A DNA stretch of 64,000 nucleotides, taken from Actinosynnema sp. ALI-1.44. Lineage in GTDB: Bacteria > Actinomycetota > Actinomycetes > Mycobacteriales > Pseudonocardiaceae. The notes under the pieces were generated by a model. That model did no database searches. It worked only from the letters and a program-made list of their open reading frames with translations, and was not told the DNA's origin. Location: NCBI RefSeq assembly GCF_001984155.1, contig NZ_MTQO01000043.1, forward strand, positions 186,001-250,000, read 5' to 3'. Shown here one piece after another: positions 607 through 14,415 of this stretch (position 1 is the first letter of the stretch; every line of letters begins with the position of its first letter). A program made the translations under genes and the position numbers.

Positions 607-1824
607 GTGATGACCACGTTTGCGGATACCGAATTTCCCGGACTGGACAAGGCGGACGAGTTGTCCGGCTTCTGCCAGGAGCTGTTCAGCTCGCTGACCC
701 GTTCGGACCAGCGCCGGTGGGGTGAGGTGTACATGCGCGGGCTGCTGACCGTGCCCGGCCGCAAGTCGATCAGGCGCATCTCCGACCACGTGGTCGGCTG
801 GCGCGCCGACCAGTGCCTGCAGCAGTTCGTCAACCAGAGCCCGTGGCGGTGGGAGCCGGTCCGGCGCGTGCTGGCCCACCACGTCGCCGCGGCGCTGCGG
901 CCGAGGGCGTGGATCATCGAGGAAGCCGTCTTCCCCAAGAACGGCGGCAGCTCGGTCGGTGTCACCAAGCAGTACGCGACATCCGCGCAGCGGACGCTGA
1001 ACTGCCAGCTGGGGGTGGCGCTGTTCATGGTGGGCGAGGACGCCTCCTGCGCGGCGAACTGGCGGCTGCTGCTGCCGGAGAGCTGGGACAACGACCCGCT
1101 GCGGCGCGGCCGCGTCCGGCTGCCCGAGGACGAACGCCACCGCCCCCGTTGGCAGTACATGCTCGACGCGATCGACGAGATGGTCATGGACTGGGGCTTC
1201 ACCGCGCCGCCGATCATGGTGCACGCCCGCGACCAGCGCCTGACCCAGCCGTTGCTGCGCGGCCTCGAGGAGCGCGGACTTCCCTACGTGATCAGGGTTC
1301 CGGAGAACACGCCGGTCCTGCCCGCGATGACCCGCGTGCCGCACGGCCGGGTGTTCAGCGCGGGCGAGCTGGCGATCCGGTCGGCCAAGCAGGGCCGGAT
1401 CACACTCAACTGGCGTGACCGCACCGACGGCAGGCTGGTCAGCTCGCAGTACGCGATCTCGCCCGTGTCCACCGGATCGGTGTCCGGGCCGCTGCACCTG
1501 ATGCCGGGCCGTCCGCACGGCGGTGCCCGCCGGGTGCTGGCCGAGTGGTCGGGCGGTGGCCGCAGGCTCAACGCGGTGTGGATCACCAACCTCAACGCCA
1601 CCCGGCTGCCCGAGCTGATCAGCCTGGTCAAGCTGAGCCCGCAGGCGGGCACCGACATGGTGCGGCTGCAGGACGAGTTCGGCCTGCGGCACTTCGAGGG
1701 CCGTTCGTACGCGGGCTGGCACCACCACGTGAGCCTGGTGTCCGCCGCGCACGCCTACTGGACGCTGCGACGGCAGGAGCACCTGCAGCAGATCGACGGA
1801 ATGCGCCTCCGGCCGCACGCGTGA
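607..1824 (+). CDS. IS701-like transposase-fold protein, probably catalytically degenerate
   Basis: This 405-residue protein resembles the IS701 DDE transposase family: the segment FPKNGGSSVGVTKQY near residue 115 and HFEGRSYAGWHHHVSLV near residue 360 match conserved blocks. The family usually has an Asp pair ahead of FPK; here the residues are EE (WIIEEAVFPK). The second catalytic region, usually an ADAGYG-type motif, reads MVHARDQR. Two of three acidic positions therefore look altered, while the Glu of HFEGRS remains. No terminal inverted repeats or target duplications were seen. The stop codon overlaps the start of the downstream kinase (GTGA), so the pair is probably co-translated. GTG at 607 and ATG at 610 are both possible starts. 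Known: such solitary IS701-like genes occur in actinomycete biosynthetic regions. Inferred: a domesticated, non-transposing role. Confidence 0.75.
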   Translation: MMTTFADTEFPGLDKADELSGFCQELFSSLTRSDQRRWGEVYMRGLLTVPGRKSIRRISDHVVGWRADQCLQQFVNQSPWRWEPVRRVLAHHVAAALRPRAWIIEEAVFPKNGGSSVGVTKQYATSAQRTLNCQLGVALFMVGEDASCAANWRLLLPESWDNDPLRRGRVRLPEDERHRPRWQYMLDAIDEMVMDWGFTAPPIMVHARDQRLTQPLLRGLEERGLPYVIRVPENTPVLPAMTRVPHGRVFSAGELAIRSAKQGRITLNWRDRTDGRLVSSQYAISPVSTGSVSGPLHLMPGRPHGGARRVLAEWSGGGRRLNAVWITNLNATRLPELISLVKLSPQAGTDMVRLQDEFGLRHFEGRSYAGWHHHVSLVSAAHAYWTLRRQEHLQQIDGMRLRPHA

Positions 1825-3284
1825 AGGGGACGGACGTGTCCGTCGACCGGCTCAGGGACGTCGAACTGTTCGCCGAACTGGACGACGACCAGCTCGCGTG
1901 GCTGGCACGCGCGGGCACGCCGCTGCGGCTGCGCGACGGCGAGGTGCTGTTCGACGACGGCCAGGTAGCGACGCACTTCTACGTCCTGCTCGCCGGAGAA
2001 CTGCTCATCACGCAGGTGCTCGACGGCTGGGAGCACGTGCTCAGCAGGCACTCGGCCACCATCGCGGCGGACCCGCACGCGGTGCGGGGTCCTGGCGCGA
2101 AACCCCGTGCGGCGCACCAGTTCACGGGCGAGCTGCCGATGCTGGCGGGCGGTGACTACGTGGCGAAAGCCACCGCCGTCGGCGACACGGAGCTGATCTC
2201 GTACGACAAGGAGACGTTCCTGCGGATGCTGGTCCGCTGCCCGCAGGTGTGCCGGGTGATGGTCCCGGTGCTCGCGTGGCGGATCCACTCGCAGGAGACC
2301 CAGGCAGGACGACGCGCGACGCTGGAGGGGGTCGGGAAGCTCACCGCGGGGCTGGCGCACGAGCTCAACAACCCGACCGCCGCCGTTGTCCGTTCCGCCG
2401 GTGAACTCGAACTGACCGTGCCCGACCTCGCCGCGTGGGCGAACGAGTGGGGAGCCCACGCGACCCCGGGCGAACGCGCGCTGCTCGACGACTTCACGGC
2501 ACGAGTCACCGCGGGCGAAGGTGTCATCCGCCCGCGGGACGCTCTCGACGCCGCCGAGGTGGCCGACGACCTGATCGACTGGTTCGAGCCGCGAAACGTG
2601 GACCGGGCGGGCGAGTTCGCGACGATCCTCGCCGACCACGGCGTCCACCCCGCGCTGCTCGGCGAGTTCGCCGCGGGTGTCCGTGCCGAGGTGCTGCCCG
2701 TCGCTGTCGCGTGCCTGTGCTTCTCCCTGCACACCCGCTCGCTCGTGGCGGACGTGTCCGAAGCGGGACAACGGATCGAGGCCCTGGTCGCGACGGCGAG
2801 GTCGTACACCAACCTGGACCGCGCGCCCGTCCAGGACATCGACCTCGTCGAAGGGCTCGAGGCGACCCTGGCCATGCTGGCGCCGAACCTGAACGGGATC
2901 AGGATCCGGCGCGACTACGGGGACTTGCCGCTGGTGGCGGTGCGTCCCGGCGAACTCAACCAGGTGTGGAGCAACCTGATCGACAACGCGATCCACGCCA
3001 TGGGCGGTGAGGGCGAGCTGCGGGTGAGCACCCGGGTCGAAGGGGGCAACGCGGTGGTGGAGATCCGCGACAGCGGGCCGGGCATCGCGCAGGACGTGCT
3101 GCCGTCGCTGTTCCAGCCGTTCTTCACGACCAAGGACATCGGCAGGGGGACGGGGCTCGGCCTGTACCTGAGCCGCAACATCATCACCCAGCACCACAAC
3201 GGGTCCATCGACGTCAGCTCACGGCCCGGCGACACCCGGTTCACCGTGCTGTTGCCGCTGGCCAGGTACATGAGTACGGCTTGA
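1821..3284 (+). CDS. cyclic-nucleotide-binding-domain sensor histidine kinase
   Basis: The 487-residue protein has an N-terminal cNMP-binding (CAP_ED) domain (residues about 10-150, with the [24 protein letters not shown] signature of that fold), then a HisKA segment with the phospho-acceptor His in GLAHELNNP (about residue 178), and a HATPase_c domain with an N box [15 protein letters not shown] (about 380), DSGPGI and GTGLGL ATP-lid motifs. There are no transmembrane helices, so it should be a cytosolic sensor. GTG at 1821 is chosen because it makes a 4-bp overlap with the preceding gene; the frame is open further upstream, but that part is only the shadow of the transposase-like gene. No response regulator lies next to it. 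Known members of this architecture are predicted to couple ligand binding to a phosphorelay; the ligand and partner here are unknown. Confidence 0.85.
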
Positions 3285-3336
3285 GAGAGCGTTGAGCCAA
3301 CCTGGTCGCAGTGACTTCGACACCCGAGGAAGTGCC

Positions 3337-4524
3337 ATGCGATCGAGGCTGTTCACGAGCGAGTCCGTCACCGAGGGACACCCGGACAAGATCTGCGACG
3401 CGATCAGCGACTCCGTCCTGGACGCGTTGCTCACCGACGACCCGGCGAGCCGGGTGGCCGTCGAGACACTGGTGACCACCGGCCAGGTGCACGTGGCCGG
3501 GGAGGTCACCACCAACGCGTACGCCGACATCCCCGGCATCGTGCGCCAGCGGATCCTGGACATCGGCTACGACTCGTCGGCGAAGGGGTTCGACGGGAAC
3601 TCCTGCGGCGTGAACGTGGCGATCGGCGCGCAGTCGACGGACATCGCGCAGGGCGTCGACAACGCGTACGAGTCCCGTGTGGACGCGGCGGAGAACGACA
3701 TCGACCGGCAGGGCGCCGGCGACCAGGGCCTGATGTTCGGCTACGCGTGCTCGGAGACGCCGGAGCTGATGCCGTTGCCGATCATGGTGGCGCACAGGCT
3801 GTCGCGTCGGCTGACGAACGTGCGCAAGACCGGGCTCGTGCCGTATCTGCGGCCGGACGGCAAGACCCAGGTCACTGTCGAGTACGCGGGTGACCAGCCG
3901 GTGCGGCTGGACACGATCGTGGTGTCCTCGCAGCATGCCGACGGCATCGACCTGGACAAGCTGCTCGCACCGGACGTGCTCGAGCACGCCGTCGCACCGG
4001 AACTGTCCACATTGGACATCGACACGTCGGACGTGCGGCTGCTGGTGAACCCGACCGGCCGGTTCGTCACCGGTGGTCCGATGGGTGACGCGGGCCTGAC
4101 CGGCCGCAAGATCATCGTGGACACCTACGGCGGCATGGCGCGGCACGGTGGTGGCGCGTTCTCCGGCAAGGACCCGTCCAAGGTGGACAGGTCGGCCGCG
4201 TACGCGATGCGCTGGGTGGCCAAGAACGTCGTCGCCGCCGGGCTCGCGAGCCGGGCGGAGGTCCAGGTGGCCTACGCGATCGGCAAGGCGGCCCCGGTGG
4301 GTCTGTTCGTGGAGACCTTCGGGACCGAGGTGGTCGACCCGACGAAGATCCAGGAAGCGATTTCCCAGGTCTTCGACCTGCGTCCGGCCGCGATCATCCG
4401 TGACCTGGACCTGCTGCGGCCGATCTACGCGCCGACCGCGGCGTACGGCCACTTCGGCCGCACGGACCTGGATCTGCCGTGGGAGCGCACGGACCGCGCG
4501 GAGGCGTTGCGGCACGCATTGTGA
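3337..4524 (+). CDS. metK: S-adenosylmethionine synthetase
   Basis: This 395-residue protein forms S-adenosylmethionine from methionine and ATP in the cytosol. The methionine/ATP-binding motif GHPDKICD lies near the N-terminus (residues 16-23), with [12 protein letters not shown] around residue 115 and the phosphate-binding [19 protein letters not shown] around residue 270, all in family positions and at normal family length. The ATG at 3337 follows GAGGAAGTGCC, a good ribosome-binding site; an in-frame TTG at 3292 would add 15 atypical residues. It sits 52 bases after the histidine kinase and may be read through from it. Actinomycetes often carry more than one metK; whether this is the housekeeping copy cannot be told here because no methionine-cycle genes flank it. 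Confidence 0.93.
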
Positions 4525-4612
4525 ACCCGGTCGGATCCTGCCCGGCCGTAGGCGGCGAGTCTGTCCCGATCACCGTCCGGCCGGTTGCGCGGAAGTGGTC
4601 CATAGTAGGACC

Positions 4613-4954
4613 GTGGACCACCCCGCGTTCGTGCTGCACGACCACCGCAAACCGCGGCCGCACTTCGACCTGCGCCTGGAGGAGAACGGCGTGCTCAGGT
4701 CATGGGCAGTCCCGCGCGGACTGCCCCAGGCGGGGGAGAACCGGCTCGCGGTGCCCGTGCCGGACCACGATCTCGACCACCTGACGTACGAGGACGCGGA
4801 CAAGAGCATCGCGGACATCGGCTGGTGGGAGGAACACGACCGGACCGCCAGGCGCATCCTGTTCACCTTGCACGGCAGACAAGGCGCGGTCCGGTACGCG
4901 CTGATCCACACGGATCCCGACTGGTTGCTGCGCCGTACCAAGGAACAACCATGA
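4613..4954 (+). CDS. stand-alone LigD-type 3'-phosphoesterase
   Basis: The 113 residues correspond to the phosphoesterase (PE) domain that in mycobacterial and pseudomonad LigD is fused to the ligase and primase; it trims 3'-phosphates and ribonucleotides from DNA ends in non-homologous end joining. The family core HFDLRLEENGVLRSWAVPRG (residues 17-36) carries the metal-binding His and Asp and the Arg of the consensus H-x-D-x-RLE, and WAVPRGLP matches the conserved WAVPKGP. A second family-like block is WWEEHDRT...ARRILFTLHG. GTG at 4613 gives the family N-terminus DHPAFVLHDH. The gene ends inside the ATG of the uracil-DNA glycosylase gene (ATGA overlap), so the two are translationally coupled, which supports a DNA-repair role. 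No ligase or Ku gene is nearby. Confidence 0.85.
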   Translation: MDHPAFVLHDHRKPRPHFDLRLEENGVLRSWAVPRGLPQAGENRLAVPVPDHDLDHLTYEDADKSIADIGWWEEHDRTARRILFTLHGRQGAVRYALIHTDPDWLLRRTKEQP

Positions 4955-5526
4955 GCCTTGCCGACATCCGCGCCGAGATCATGGCCGACAACGCGTGGGC
5001 CACCGAGCAGGGCTGGCAACCGGTCTACGCGGCCGCGCCGGGAGCGCGCATCGCGATCATCGGCCAGGCCCCGGGCCGCCGCGCCCAGGAGAGCGGCGTC
5101 CCGTTCGACGACCCGAGCGGTGACCGGTTGCGGGGCTGGCTCGGCGTCACCGACGAGCAGTTCTACGACCCGAACCGGTTCGCGATCCTGCCGATGGACT
5201 TCTACTTCCCCGGCAAGGCCGCGAGCGGGGACCTGCCGCCGCGCGCGGACTTCGCGCCGAAGTGGCACCCGCGGATACTGGCCGGGCTCACCGACGTCCG
5301 GCTCACGCTGCTGATCGGCGGTTACGCGCAGAAGCGGTACCTCAAGGGCCGCGCCAAGTCGTCGCTGACCGAGACTGTCCGGTCCTATCGGGACTACCTG
5401 CCCGAGCTGATCCCGCTCGTGCACCCGTCGCCGCTGAACTTCCGCTGGCAGAGCAGGAATCCATGGTTCGCCGCTGAGGTCGTGCCGGTCCTGCGTGCCG
5501 AGGTCGCCAAGGCGCTGCGCGCTTGA
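4951..5526 (+). CDS. uracil-DNA glycosylase family protein
   Basis: This 191-residue protein has the uracil-DNA-glycosylase-superfamily fold signature: motif 1 GQAPGRRAQESGVPFDDPSG at about residues 36-55 and motif 2 HPSPLN near residue 154. It resembles the single-domain family related to YqfB/UDG-like proteins rather than classical family 1 Ung (no GQDPYH). Members excise uracil or related bases from DNA, leaving an abasic site. Its coupling to the 3'-phosphoesterase gene suggests a small end-cleaning/base-excision cassette. A perfect 10-bp-stem hairpin lies 24 bases after its stop codon. Confidence 0.85.
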   Translation: MSLADIRAEIMADNAWATEQGWQPVYAAAPGARIAIIGQAPGRRAQESGVPFDDPSGDRLRGWLGVTDEQFYDPNRFAILPMDFYFPGKAASGDLPPRADFAPKWHPRILAGLTDVRLTLLIGGYAQKRYLKGRAKSSLTETVRSYRDYLPELIPLVHPSPLNFRWQSRNPWFAAEVVPVLRAEVAKALRA

Positions 5527-11349: not shown

Positions 11350-11652
11350 TCAGTACTTGCGGACCTCGGCCTTGGCGTCGCGGACCATCATCTTGCACTC
11401 GTAGCGGATGGTCTTGCGCTTGCCGGGGTCGATCCTGGTCCAGTCGCTGTGCTTCCAGCCGGACCAGCACTTGACCTTCAGCCGGGCCTGGCTCTTCTCG
11501 GTGCCGCCGGTGCAGTCGGCCCATGCGGCGGTGTTGGCGTAGTGCGACTTGCAGGTGGCGAGTGTGCCCGCAGTGGCGGGAGCGGCGGACAAGCCAAGCA
11601 ACATCGCGCCGGACACGAGCGCGGCGGCGCCTATGCGGTGGATCACGGACAC
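11350..11652 (-). CDS. small secreted Cys-containing protein, unknown function
   Basis: This 100-residue protein has a typical signal peptide (MSVIHRIGAAALVSGAMLLG, Ala-rich cleavage region ending ATA). The roughly 70-residue mature part is basic and has four Cys in CKSH, DCTGG, KCWSGW and YECKM, probably two disulfides. I do not recognise the family; similar short basic secreted proteins are common in actinomycetes. The GTG at 11652 has AGGA 9 bases upstream. The gene ends against a strong hairpin and is divergent from the nSTAND gene, with a perfect 14-bp palindrome between them. Confidence 0.7.
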   Translation of the reverse strand: MSVIHRIGAAALVSGAMLLGLSAAPATAGTLATCKSHYANTAAWADCTGGTEKSQARLKVKCWSGWKHSDWTRIDPGKRKTIRYECKMMVRDAKAEVRKY

Positions 11653-11736: not shown

Positions 11737-11750
11737 TCCCGTATACGGGA
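11737..11750. promoter_or_regulatory. 14-bp perfect palindrome, candidate operator
   Basis: TCCCGTATACGGGA is a perfect palindrome between the divergent small secreted protein gene (start 11652) and the nSTAND gene (start 11788). Position and symmetry suit a dimeric repressor. The regulator is unknown. Confidence 0.4.
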
Positions 11751-11787: not shown

Positions 11788-13956
11788 GTGCCCAGACCCG
11801 CACGAACGTGCCAGCCCGACCCGTGGGCCGCCAAGGACCAGGCCGAGTTCCGGGAAAGCCTGCGCGGCCTCATGCGTTGGGCGGGGCACGGATCGTTGCA
11901 CCAGTTGGAGGCGGCGGCGGTCCGGCGTGGCACGAGCATGCCGGTGTCCACAGCGAACAGAGCGCTGAACAACGACCGGCTGCCCACAGGGGACTTCGTC
12001 GAACGCATGGTCACGGCGTGCGGCGTCGAGGTGGCGCCATGGCTGGCGGCACGGGACGCGTTGGCCGACCGTCGGTACCTGCTCGACACACCCCGCAGCA
12101 CGCCGAACGCTGATCGCACTGACGAGTGCCCCTATCCCGGGTTGGCGGCGTTCACGGCCGGTCAGGCGCGCTGGTTCTTCGGGCGGGAGGAGACGATCGC
12201 CGAGCTTCTGGACCTCCTGGCGGGAGCGACCGGGCCGGTGCTGGTGTCGGGGCCGTCCGGCACGGGCAAGTCCTCGTTGCTGAGGGCCGGGCTCCTGCCC
12301 GGGTTGGCGGACGGCAGGCTGCCCGGCTCGGCGGACTGGACGTGCGCGGTGATCACCCCGACCGCCCATCCAGAGGCCGAACTGGCCCGATGCCTCGACG
12401 GGCGACCGGACTTGATCGTGGTCGACCAGTTCGAGGAGGTTTTCACGCTCTGCCGTGACGAGACGCGGCGCCGGGCGTTCATCGAGACGTTGTGCGCCCA
12501 GGACCGCGTCGTGCTGGGCATGCGAGCTGACTTCCACGGGCATTGCGCGTCCTACCCGCAGCTGGTCGGCGCACTGCGGCAGGGACAGCTGCTGCTCGGC
12601 CCGATGACCGAGGGACAACTGCGCGCCGCGATGGGCAAACCGGCCGCCGCGGTCGGGCTCGACCTGCAGACCGGGCTCGCCGACGTGATCATCGGCGAGC
12701 TCGGCGGCCGCGACCAGCCGGGTGCGTTGCCGCTGTTGGCGCACACACTGATGGCCACGTGGCGGCACCGGACCGGCCGGATGCTGACGATCGCCGGGTA
12801 TCGGCTGACCGGAGGCGTCTCCGGCGCCATCGCCAAAACCGCCGAACGCGCCTACCAGCGGCTCAGCGCCGACCAGCAGGAGGCCGCGCGGGTGCTGTTG
12901 CTGCGGATGATCCAGTTCGGCGACGGCACCGCCGACACCCGCAGGCACCTCGACCGCGCCAAGCTCGTCGGGGAATCGGCGGATCCGGTGCTGGCCGCGT
13001 TGGTCGACGCCCGGCTGGTGACCGTGAACGAGTCCACTGTGGTGCTCGCACACGAGGCGATCCTGAGCGCGTGGCCGCGGTTGGCGTCCTGGATCGAGGC
13101 GGACCGTGCCCGGTTGCTGGCCGGACAGCGGCTGGTCGCGGCGGCCGAGGGATGGGAACGCGACGGGCGCCACGAATCCGACCTCTACCGAGGGCACCGC
13201 CTTGCGGCTGTGCTGGAACGACCAGGTGAAACGCCTGAGGCGGCGGCCGAGTTCGTACGGGCGAGCGTGCGGCGCGAACACACCGAGCGTCGTGCCGCGG
13301 CACGACGGACCAAGCGGCTACGCCAACTGGTCGCGGTACTGAGCTGCCTGGTCCTGCTGGCCGCGGTGATGACAGTGGTCGCCGTCGTGTCCCGGCAGGA
13401 CATCGTGCGGCAGCGGGACATCGGTCTGTCCCGCCAGATCGCCGGCACCGCGATCGCGTTGCGGATGTCGGATCCCGACCTGGCTGGGCAACTGGCCGTG
13501 GCGGCCTACGACCTGGCGAGCACCGCGGAGGCCAGGGGCGCGATCATGACGACGCTGGTCAACCTCGATCCGACCCGCAGCACAGACGCCAGCAGCGCAG
13601 GTCCTGTGCAGATGGTCGCGTTCAGCGCAGACGGGACCTCCATGGCGGCGGCCAGCCGGGACGCCACGGCCCGCGTGTGGGCGCTCGGCGATCCGCCGAG
13701 CCTCGTCAGCACTCCAGTGGACCTGGCCGTGCACCAGGGTGAGGTTCGAGCGGCGCTCTTCGCGCCGGCAGGCCCGCCTTTGCTGGTGACGTCGGCGGGG
13801 GACGGCAAGGTACGGCTGTGGCCCACATCGGCCATCAGACAGGGCGCGGACGCGCCGCTGGCGATCCCCGGGCCGATCCGCGACCTCGGTCCGCTGGCGT
13901 TCAGCGGGGACGGTTCGCTGCTCGTGGCAGGTGCTCATCCGGGCAGGAACGTCTAG
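11788..13956 (+). CDS. HTH-nSTAND1-TM-WD40 protein, interrupted by TAG
   Basis: The 722-residue product has an N-terminal helix-turn-helix-like region (about 10-70), an nSTAND1 NTPase domain opening CPYPGLAAFTAGQARWFFGR, with P-loop GPSGTGKSS (about 155) and Walker B LIVVDQFEE (about 209), a transmembrane helix (about 512-532), and the first WD40 units (FSADGTSMAAASRDATARVWALG and a second ending SAGDGKVRLWP). The frame ends at a TAG (13954-13956) inside a third WD40 unit, just before VWS: the residues around it read HPGRNV-stop-VWST. The same frame then stays open to 14415 and encodes a lectin module. Known: nSTAND1-WD40 proteins are sensing/scaffolding NTPases, some in conflict systems. A full propeller is expected but only two to three units are present. 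Confidence 0.8.
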   Translation: MPRPARTCQPDPWAAKDQAEFRESLRGLMRWAGHGSLHQLEAAAVRRGTSMPVSTANRALNNDRLPTGDFVERMVTACGVEVAPWLAARDALADRRYLLDTPRSTPNADRTDECPYPGLAAFTAGQARWFFGREETIAELLDLLAGATGPVLVSGPSGTGKSSLLRAGLLPGLADGRLPGSADWTCAVITPTAHPEAELARCLDGRPDLIVVDQFEEVFTLCRDETRRRAFIETLCAQDRVVLGMRADFHGHCASYPQLVGALRQGQLLLGPMTEGQLRAAMGKPAAAVGLDLQTGLADVIIGELGGRDQPGALPLLAHTLMATWRHRTGRMLTIAGYRLTGGVSGAIAKTAERAYQRLSADQQEAARVLLLRMIQFGDGTADTRRHLDRAKLVGESADPVLAALVDARLVTVNESTVVLAHEAILSAWPRLASWIEADRARLLAGQRLVAAAEGWERDGRHESDLYRGHRLAAVLERPGETPEAAAEFVRASVRREHTERRAAARRTKRLRQLVAVLSCLVLLAAVMTVVAVVSRQDIVRQRDIGLSRQIAGTAIALRMSDPDLAGQLAVAAYDLASTAEARGAIMTTLVNLDPTRSTDASSAGPVQMVAFSADGTSMAAASRDATARVWALGDPPSLVSTPVDLAVHQGEVRAALFAPAGPPLLVTSAGDGKVRLWPTSAIRQGADAPLAIPGPIRDLGPLAFSGDGSLLVAGAHPGRNV

Positions 13957-14415
13957 GTATGGAGCACGGCGAGTACGGAGATCGTCGCGTCGCACAGCGG
14001 GAAATGCCTGGCAAGTCGGGCAACGCGGCCCGCTGCGGGGGCGCCCGTGTCGCAGTTCCGGTGCAAGGGGCTGAACACGAGCCGTTGGACGTTCGATCGG
14101 GATGGGGCGTCGCACCGTGTCCGCAACACCGCGACGAATCTTTGCCTCGACGCACGTTCCGACGAACGCCGGAGTGGCGGAGCGTACCTCGTGGTCCAAC
14201 GGGAGTGCGGCGCTGCCGAGACGCAGCTGTGGCGGGCGGTCGAAATCGCCCCGAACGGCACCGGACAAGTCGACGTCCAGCTTGTGCACCGGTCCACAGA
14301 GCAGTGTCTCGACATCAATCAGATGAGCGCGCTCGACGGGGCGTTGGCCATCCGCTGGTCCTGCGGGACAACTCCGAACCAGGTCTTCCGGGTCACCACA
14401 GCCTCGATCCGCTAG
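13957..14415 (+). pseudogene. in-frame ricin-B (beta-trefoil) lectin module cut off by the TAG at 13954
   Basis: Directly after the TAG, in the same frame, about 152 codons encode a three-fold repeat of ricin-type subdomains: IVASHSGKCLASR...SQFRCKG, VRNTATNLCLDARS...VVQRECG with LWRAVE, and LVHRSTEQCLDINQ...IRWSCG with NQVFRVT. Each copy has the Cys pair and the Q-x-W/F-like end of a trefoil lobe. Together they make one complete carbohydrate-binding domain. It has no ribosome-binding site or plausible start of its own near the TAG; the first in-frame GTG is at 14047, inside lobe 1. It is best read as the C-terminus of the nSTAND-WD40 protein, lost by one nonsense change (for example CAG to TAG) or kept by readthrough. 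The stop at 14413 lies 6 bases from the convergent transporter gene. Confidence 0.75.

Follow-up and report, generated by a model that had tools for sequence, protein, structure and literature searches.

A disrupted gene for a putative nSTAND1-WD40-lectin receptor in Actinosynnema sp. ALI-1.44 and its intact orthologues in Kibdelosporangium

The receptor locus and its promoter

Here we describe a receptor-type gene in the genome of Actinosynnema sp. ALI-1.44, located in a 64,000-nt stretch of DNA that is referred to as the window. The open reading frame (ORF) lies on the forward strand (11788–13956), begins with GTG, and encodes 722 amino acids before it ends at a TAG codon (13954–13956) situated within a WD40 strand (GAHPGRNV-stop-VWST). 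Past this codon the frame is unchanged and remains open until a second TAG at 14413–14415. The part before the internal stop contains an nSTAND1 NTPase domain (PF20703; residues 115–463, positions 12130–13176), which was detected with Pfam over positions 1–378 of the 379-position profile (E 1.6e-114; 383.9 bits, cut-off 27.1). The strings GPSGTGKS and LIVVDQFEE, which we take to be its P-loop and Walker B motifs, are visible in the frame. Residues 1–104 had no Pfam match, and their label as a helix-turn-helix (HTH) region goes back to the preliminary description of the sequence and to resemblance. By eye, one hydrophobic segment (13324–13389) follows an Arg/Lys-rich stretch and precedes the propeller; it is likely a single transmembrane segment, in line with the membrane anchor proposed in that description. 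WD40 sequence was found by Pfam in two stretches before the stop (E 4.7e-9). Together with the alignment described below, it amounts to two complete repeats plus the greater part of a third (13582–13953), the remnant of a seven-repeat propeller and the same two to three units that had been counted before. Of the repeat-end tryptophans, two precede the TAG and the third follows it closely.

The frame stranded behind the stop (13957–14415, forward strand) encodes a ricin-type beta-trefoil lectin, matched by both RicinB_lectin_2 (PF14200; E 1.7e-24, 86.7 bits, curated cut-off 25.6) and Ricin_B_lectin (PF00652; E 8.1e-17, 62.0 bits, curated cut-off 29). All six cysteines of its three orthologues are kept. 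The ORF scan and Pfam agree with the earlier reading of a frame that stops at TAG 13954 in the middle of a WD40 strand and then encodes a ricin-type lectin up to 14415. The first ATG, GTG or TTG of the lectin frame is a GTG at 14047, 30 codons in and past the first conserved cysteine, which leaves an ORF of 122 codons. The window copy does not encode nSTAND1, WD40 and lectin in one uninterrupted ORF, owing to the TAG at 13954–13956, and the alignment gives it no closable propeller of seven repeats. Comparison with PADLOC defence proteins yielded no match along the length of the protein and one weak match near the P-loop, to mad8 (E 0.0091 for the window copy, 2.1e-4 for its nearest orthologue).

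A perfect 14-bp palindrome, TCCCGTATACGGGA (11737–11750), lies 38–51 nt before the start codon and is a candidate operator. It is common to the orthologues of Kibdelosporangium aridum DSM 43828 (genome G001, locus L112, 2007–2020) and genome G006 (locus L113, 2048–2061), where it has the same spacing to the aligned ATG and sits within a conserved block, and the promoter block of the window copy is preserved; in the third orthologue (genome G005) the site is altered. The 12-bp core occurs once each in the window genome, G001 and G006, only at this place, and in none of the five other genomes of the genus sample. A reversed control word occurred 0–2 times per genome, so one core per genome is background and the evidence for an operator is the shared place; the receptor gene may regulate itself through this site. 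Divergently oriented (11350–11652, reverse strand) is a gene for a small, secreted-looking protein of 100 amino acids with no NCBIfam match. Shortened homologues occupy the same place beside the G001 and G006 orthologues, and one further homologue lies elsewhere in G001; none was found in G005, where the palindrome is also altered.

Orthologues in the genus and two lesions in the window copy

The genus sample consisted of eight genomes assigned to Kibdelosporangium in the wide sense, including the window genome, which is a draft of 11.7 Mb in 54 contigs. The window covers 186001–250000 of a contig of 346 kb, and the locus is found close to position 200,000 of that contig. A ricin-type lectin of some kind was present in all eight genomes at E 1e-5, and this particular lectin in four of them at E below 1e-40 (the window genome, G005, G001 and G006). 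In the last three it forms the C-terminal part of a single nSTAND1 ORF of 1107, 1081 and 1082 residues, respectively (L111; L112, also recorded as L031; L113). A second copy of the lectin gene was not found in the window genome, where the next best lectin had an E of 1.1e-8. The three orthologues resemble the window copy in domain order and have the promoter block in common with it. They differ in having a continuous ORF, which runs from the nSTAND1 NTPase through the transmembrane segment, seven WD40 repeats and a linker to the lectin, with no internal stop. The NTPase-propeller-lectin fusion put forward in the preliminary description is thus one gene in all three. The number of repeats was taken from the sequence alignment, which has seven invariant repeat-end tryptophans 43–47 residues apart in each orthologue, and not from the Pfam WD40 model, which alone recognizes 3, 5 and 5 repeats in G005, G001 and G006.

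The copy in G005 is the syntenic orthologue, as judged from the DNA identity of the gene and its flanks (86–88% in three BLAST blocks; 78% for the lectin alone) and from a common downstream transporter, which was found in these two genomes only and has 94% protein identity between them. The long block before the stop has 88% DNA identity to the window in G005 and 72% in G001 and G006, and the lectin has 69, 51 and 47% protein identity in G005, G001 and G006.

At the position of the internal TAG all three orthologues have a sense codon, encoding glutamine in G005 and either threonine or alanine in G001 and G006. The glutamine of the nearest orthologue is the residue guessed earlier, when a change from CAG to TAG was considered, and close relatives with a conserved stop, which would have spoken for an independent lectin gene, were not found, all three being fusions. 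The stop is accompanied by a second lesion. An in-frame stretch of 231 codons (693 nt) that the orthologues have is missing from the window copy. It comprises repeats 4–7 and the linker; in the BLAST alignment the gap appears as 695 nt in G005 against 2 nt in the window. The further deletion that had been considered possible is therefore present, and although the TAG itself stands, the original view of a protein split by a single TAG does not hold for the lesion as a whole, since the in-frame loss took four of the seven repeats together with the linker. The junction lies at about 13963–13964, six bases (two codons) 3' of the TAG. The deletion can be placed on the window branch because G001 and G006 also have repeats 4–7 and the linker. 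A WD40 propeller needs about seven repeats to close. Since the deletion follows the TAG by only two codons, even translation past the stop would leave the propeller incomplete.

By our own post hoc arithmetic, the chance that a random stop among 875 codons falls within three codons of the junction is below 1%. Deletion between repeats was considered and rejected: at distances of up to 60 nt from the breakpoints, whose positions were taken from G005, the longest shared word has 7 letters (shuffled sequences: mean 7.3, maximum 10), no longer than expected by chance. There is thus no repeat at the breakpoints to explain recombination or a collapse of the assembly. Given the closeness of stop and junction, the lack of a repeat beyond chance, and three Ku-family matches in the window genome, both lesions may stem from one error-prone end-joining event; two separate events are possible.

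Age of the damage and alternative readings

Pairwise dN/dS ratios between the window copy and G005 (Nei-Gojobori method) were 0.11 for residues 1–104, 0.26 for nSTAND1, 0.10 for the membrane part, and 0.34 each for the WD40 part and the lectin. In this nearest pair the WD40 and lectin regions (13582–14412 in the window; compared across L111, L112 and L113) evolve faster than the NTPase, N-terminal and membrane parts, as expected of a recognition module. Fast evolution of the sensor is not a sign of the lesions, since it is also seen between the intact copies of G001 and G006 (dN 0.19 and 0.26 for the sensor half, 0.03 for nSTAND1).

Nucleotide changes in the lectin at codon positions 1, 2 and 3 numbered 12, 3 and 16 on the window branch (p 0.014 against a uniform distribution) and 3, 8 and 6 on the G005 branch; silent sites are nearly saturated in the outgroups, which makes polarised silent changes unreliable. 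The dN/dS of 0.34, the few second-position changes (3 of 31) and the six retained cysteines suggest constraint on the lectin over most of the period after the window and G005 lineages separated. With these marks of past selection on the lectin the damage is probably recent; the argument draws on constraint in the lectin and is silent on selection after the lesion. Relaxed selection on the window branch was considered as well and rejected. In the lectin, 6 amino-acid changes could be assigned to the window branch and 5 to the G005 branch, with 7 left unresolved, and two signals, both post hoc and uncorrected, give weak hints of relaxation: within the nSTAND1 and membrane parts, newly arisen residues are rarer among homologues on the window branch than on that of G005 (15 against 15 residues, p 0.036), and the lectin carries 31 nucleotide changes on the window branch against 17 on the other (p 0.029 relative to the rest).

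The reading that we consider very likely is that of a recently broken copy of a lineage-restricted receptor gene which occurs in part of the genus Kibdelosporangium; it looks like a case of ordinary decay and not like a novel mode of protein production. The window strain would then make at most a membrane-anchored NTPase of 722 residues, with an incomplete propeller and no lectin, and sensing would be lost with these parts. Rather unlikely, in our estimation, is that this protein is kept as a sensorless switch, either permanently released or partnering paralogues. The part before the stop has no clear decay and could be maintained: at 140 well-conserved columns the window copy deviates 19 times, compared with 18 for G005, 22 for G001 and 21 for G006, and the nSTAND1 ratio of 0.26 and the preserved promoter block and palindrome point the same way. 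Partners could be supplied by eleven other nSTAND1-like loci of the window genome, which have open frames of 969–1931 residues with no stops, and Apaf-1 is a precedent for a STAND protein that is freed by loss of its WD40 sensor. However, a lesion that looks recent predicts no decay either way, and the rarity of the new residues on the window branch, though a post hoc observation, argues in the other direction. We give little credence to the more far-reaching picture of a glycan receptor with a dedicated operator and a secreted partner, of which the window strain would keep operator, partner and NTPase under selection, with the 722-residue form as a permanently released regulator.

It is also unlikely that the TAG is an error of sequencing or assembly and that the strain has a shortened but continuous protein of NTPase, three repeats and lectin. 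A draft in 54 contigs, a loss that is in frame, and a frame that runs open before and after the stop would all suit such an error, whereas the position deep in a 346-kb contig and breakpoints that share no repeat beyond chance do not; a propeller of three repeats is in any case not expected to close, so that the protein would be impaired anyway. The open frame and the six cysteines of the lectin would likewise suit programmed readthrough, an option of the preliminary description that would yield a minor lectin-bearing form. We hold it to be very improbable, because the stop occurs in none of the three orthologues, the product would still be without repeats 4–7 and a closed propeller, and no amber suppressor tRNA (anticodon CTA in the gene, CUA in the tRNA) was among the 65 tRNA genes predicted with ARAGORN in stretches around 63 Rfam tRNA matches of the draft genome. 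Each of the four species has TAG as the final stop of this gene. Equally hard to credit is a lectin gene that is independent and translated from a start of its own. The 122-codon ORF from GTG 14047 would allow it, yet this codon lies past the first conserved cysteine with no earlier ATG, GTG or TTG, the three orthologues are fusions, and a scan for promoters, covering sigma-70-like sites only, returned none (0.2 expected).

Distribution and proposed function of the intact form

The nSTAND1 homologues were the best 80 of 558 matches to the NTPase. Among 83 nSTAND1 ORFs (loci L031–L113) the lectin occurs in four, which are the three orthologues with that of K. aridum represented twice (L031 and L112). 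With a four-sequence profile and a broader one, no ricin-type lectin was found in the same ORF in any of the 79 others. A family-level sample of 297 genomes contained eight with a lectin match at E 1e-15, of which four are the three orthologues and the window gene; in the other four, the frames of stretches of about 3.4 kb around the match contain no nSTAND1. No further lectin fusion was present among the matches listed for the 297 genomes (at most 13 candidates per genome). As far as this sampling goes, the fusion seems confined to a part of a single genus.

Apaf-1 is a STAND NTPase that, like the receptor, uses WD40 propellers as its sensor; unlike the receptor, it is a soluble animal protein with a CARD effector and no lectin. 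The profile of the receptor's sensor matches the WD40 part of Apaf-1 (PDB 3sfz and others). Actinobacterial nSTAND1-WD40 proteins (PF20703) have the nSTAND1 domain and, in most cases, recognisable WD40 repeats behind it, as in the window, and differ in the lectin, as the two lectin profiles detected no ricin-type domain in any of these 79 ORFs. In the parts available from a small set of papers (PMC7159879, PMC8195603, PMC5587647), the domain order nSTAND1-propeller-lectin was not found described. The available part of PMC8195603 presents conflict systems with lectin-fold sensors (FGS, NPCBM), called intracellular invader sensors, in which an NTPase or a death-like adaptor is likewise coupled to a lectin-fold recognition module. 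These systems differ in their lectin folds and adaptors, and that part does not mention a ricin-type lectin behind a transmembrane segment.

In its whole form the receptor would consist of a conserved N-terminal region that probably binds DNA, an nSTAND1 NTPase switch in the cytoplasm, a single transmembrane helix and, placed outside the membrane by the positive-inside rule, a seven-repeat WD40 propeller with the ricin-type lectin. Lectin and propeller together would recognise a glycan or a glycosylated partner, and the state of the NTPase and the output of the N-terminal region would change in response. We infer this topology, ligand and output, and likewise the recency of the receptor lesions, from sequence. 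The broken gene itself looks like the usual decay in a large paralogous family. Of some value is the intact form in the relatives, a single-chain membrane receptor that would combine an nSTAND switch, a propeller and a domain of glycan-binding type, and whose gene has a candidate operator. Since the window strain amounts to a natural mutant that lacks the sensor, comparing strains could reveal which processes the sensor governs.

Two other loci of the window genome may be mentioned beside the receptor gene. A second broken nSTAND1-WD40 gene lies on contig C43 (40500–45000; L159, about 1327–2380, reverse strand), where the matches to residues 209–403 and 400–443 do not share a frame and the 4.5 kb examined yielded none to the P-loop half; broken nSTAND1 members are therefore not unique to the receptor locus. 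On contig C49 (549500–556500; L158), a stand-alone gene for a secreted-looking ricin-type lectin (988–1554, reverse strand) is divergent from an adjoining, uninterrupted nSTAND1-WD40 paralogue (1612–5376, forward strand), so that lectin and receptor also occur as unfused neighbours.
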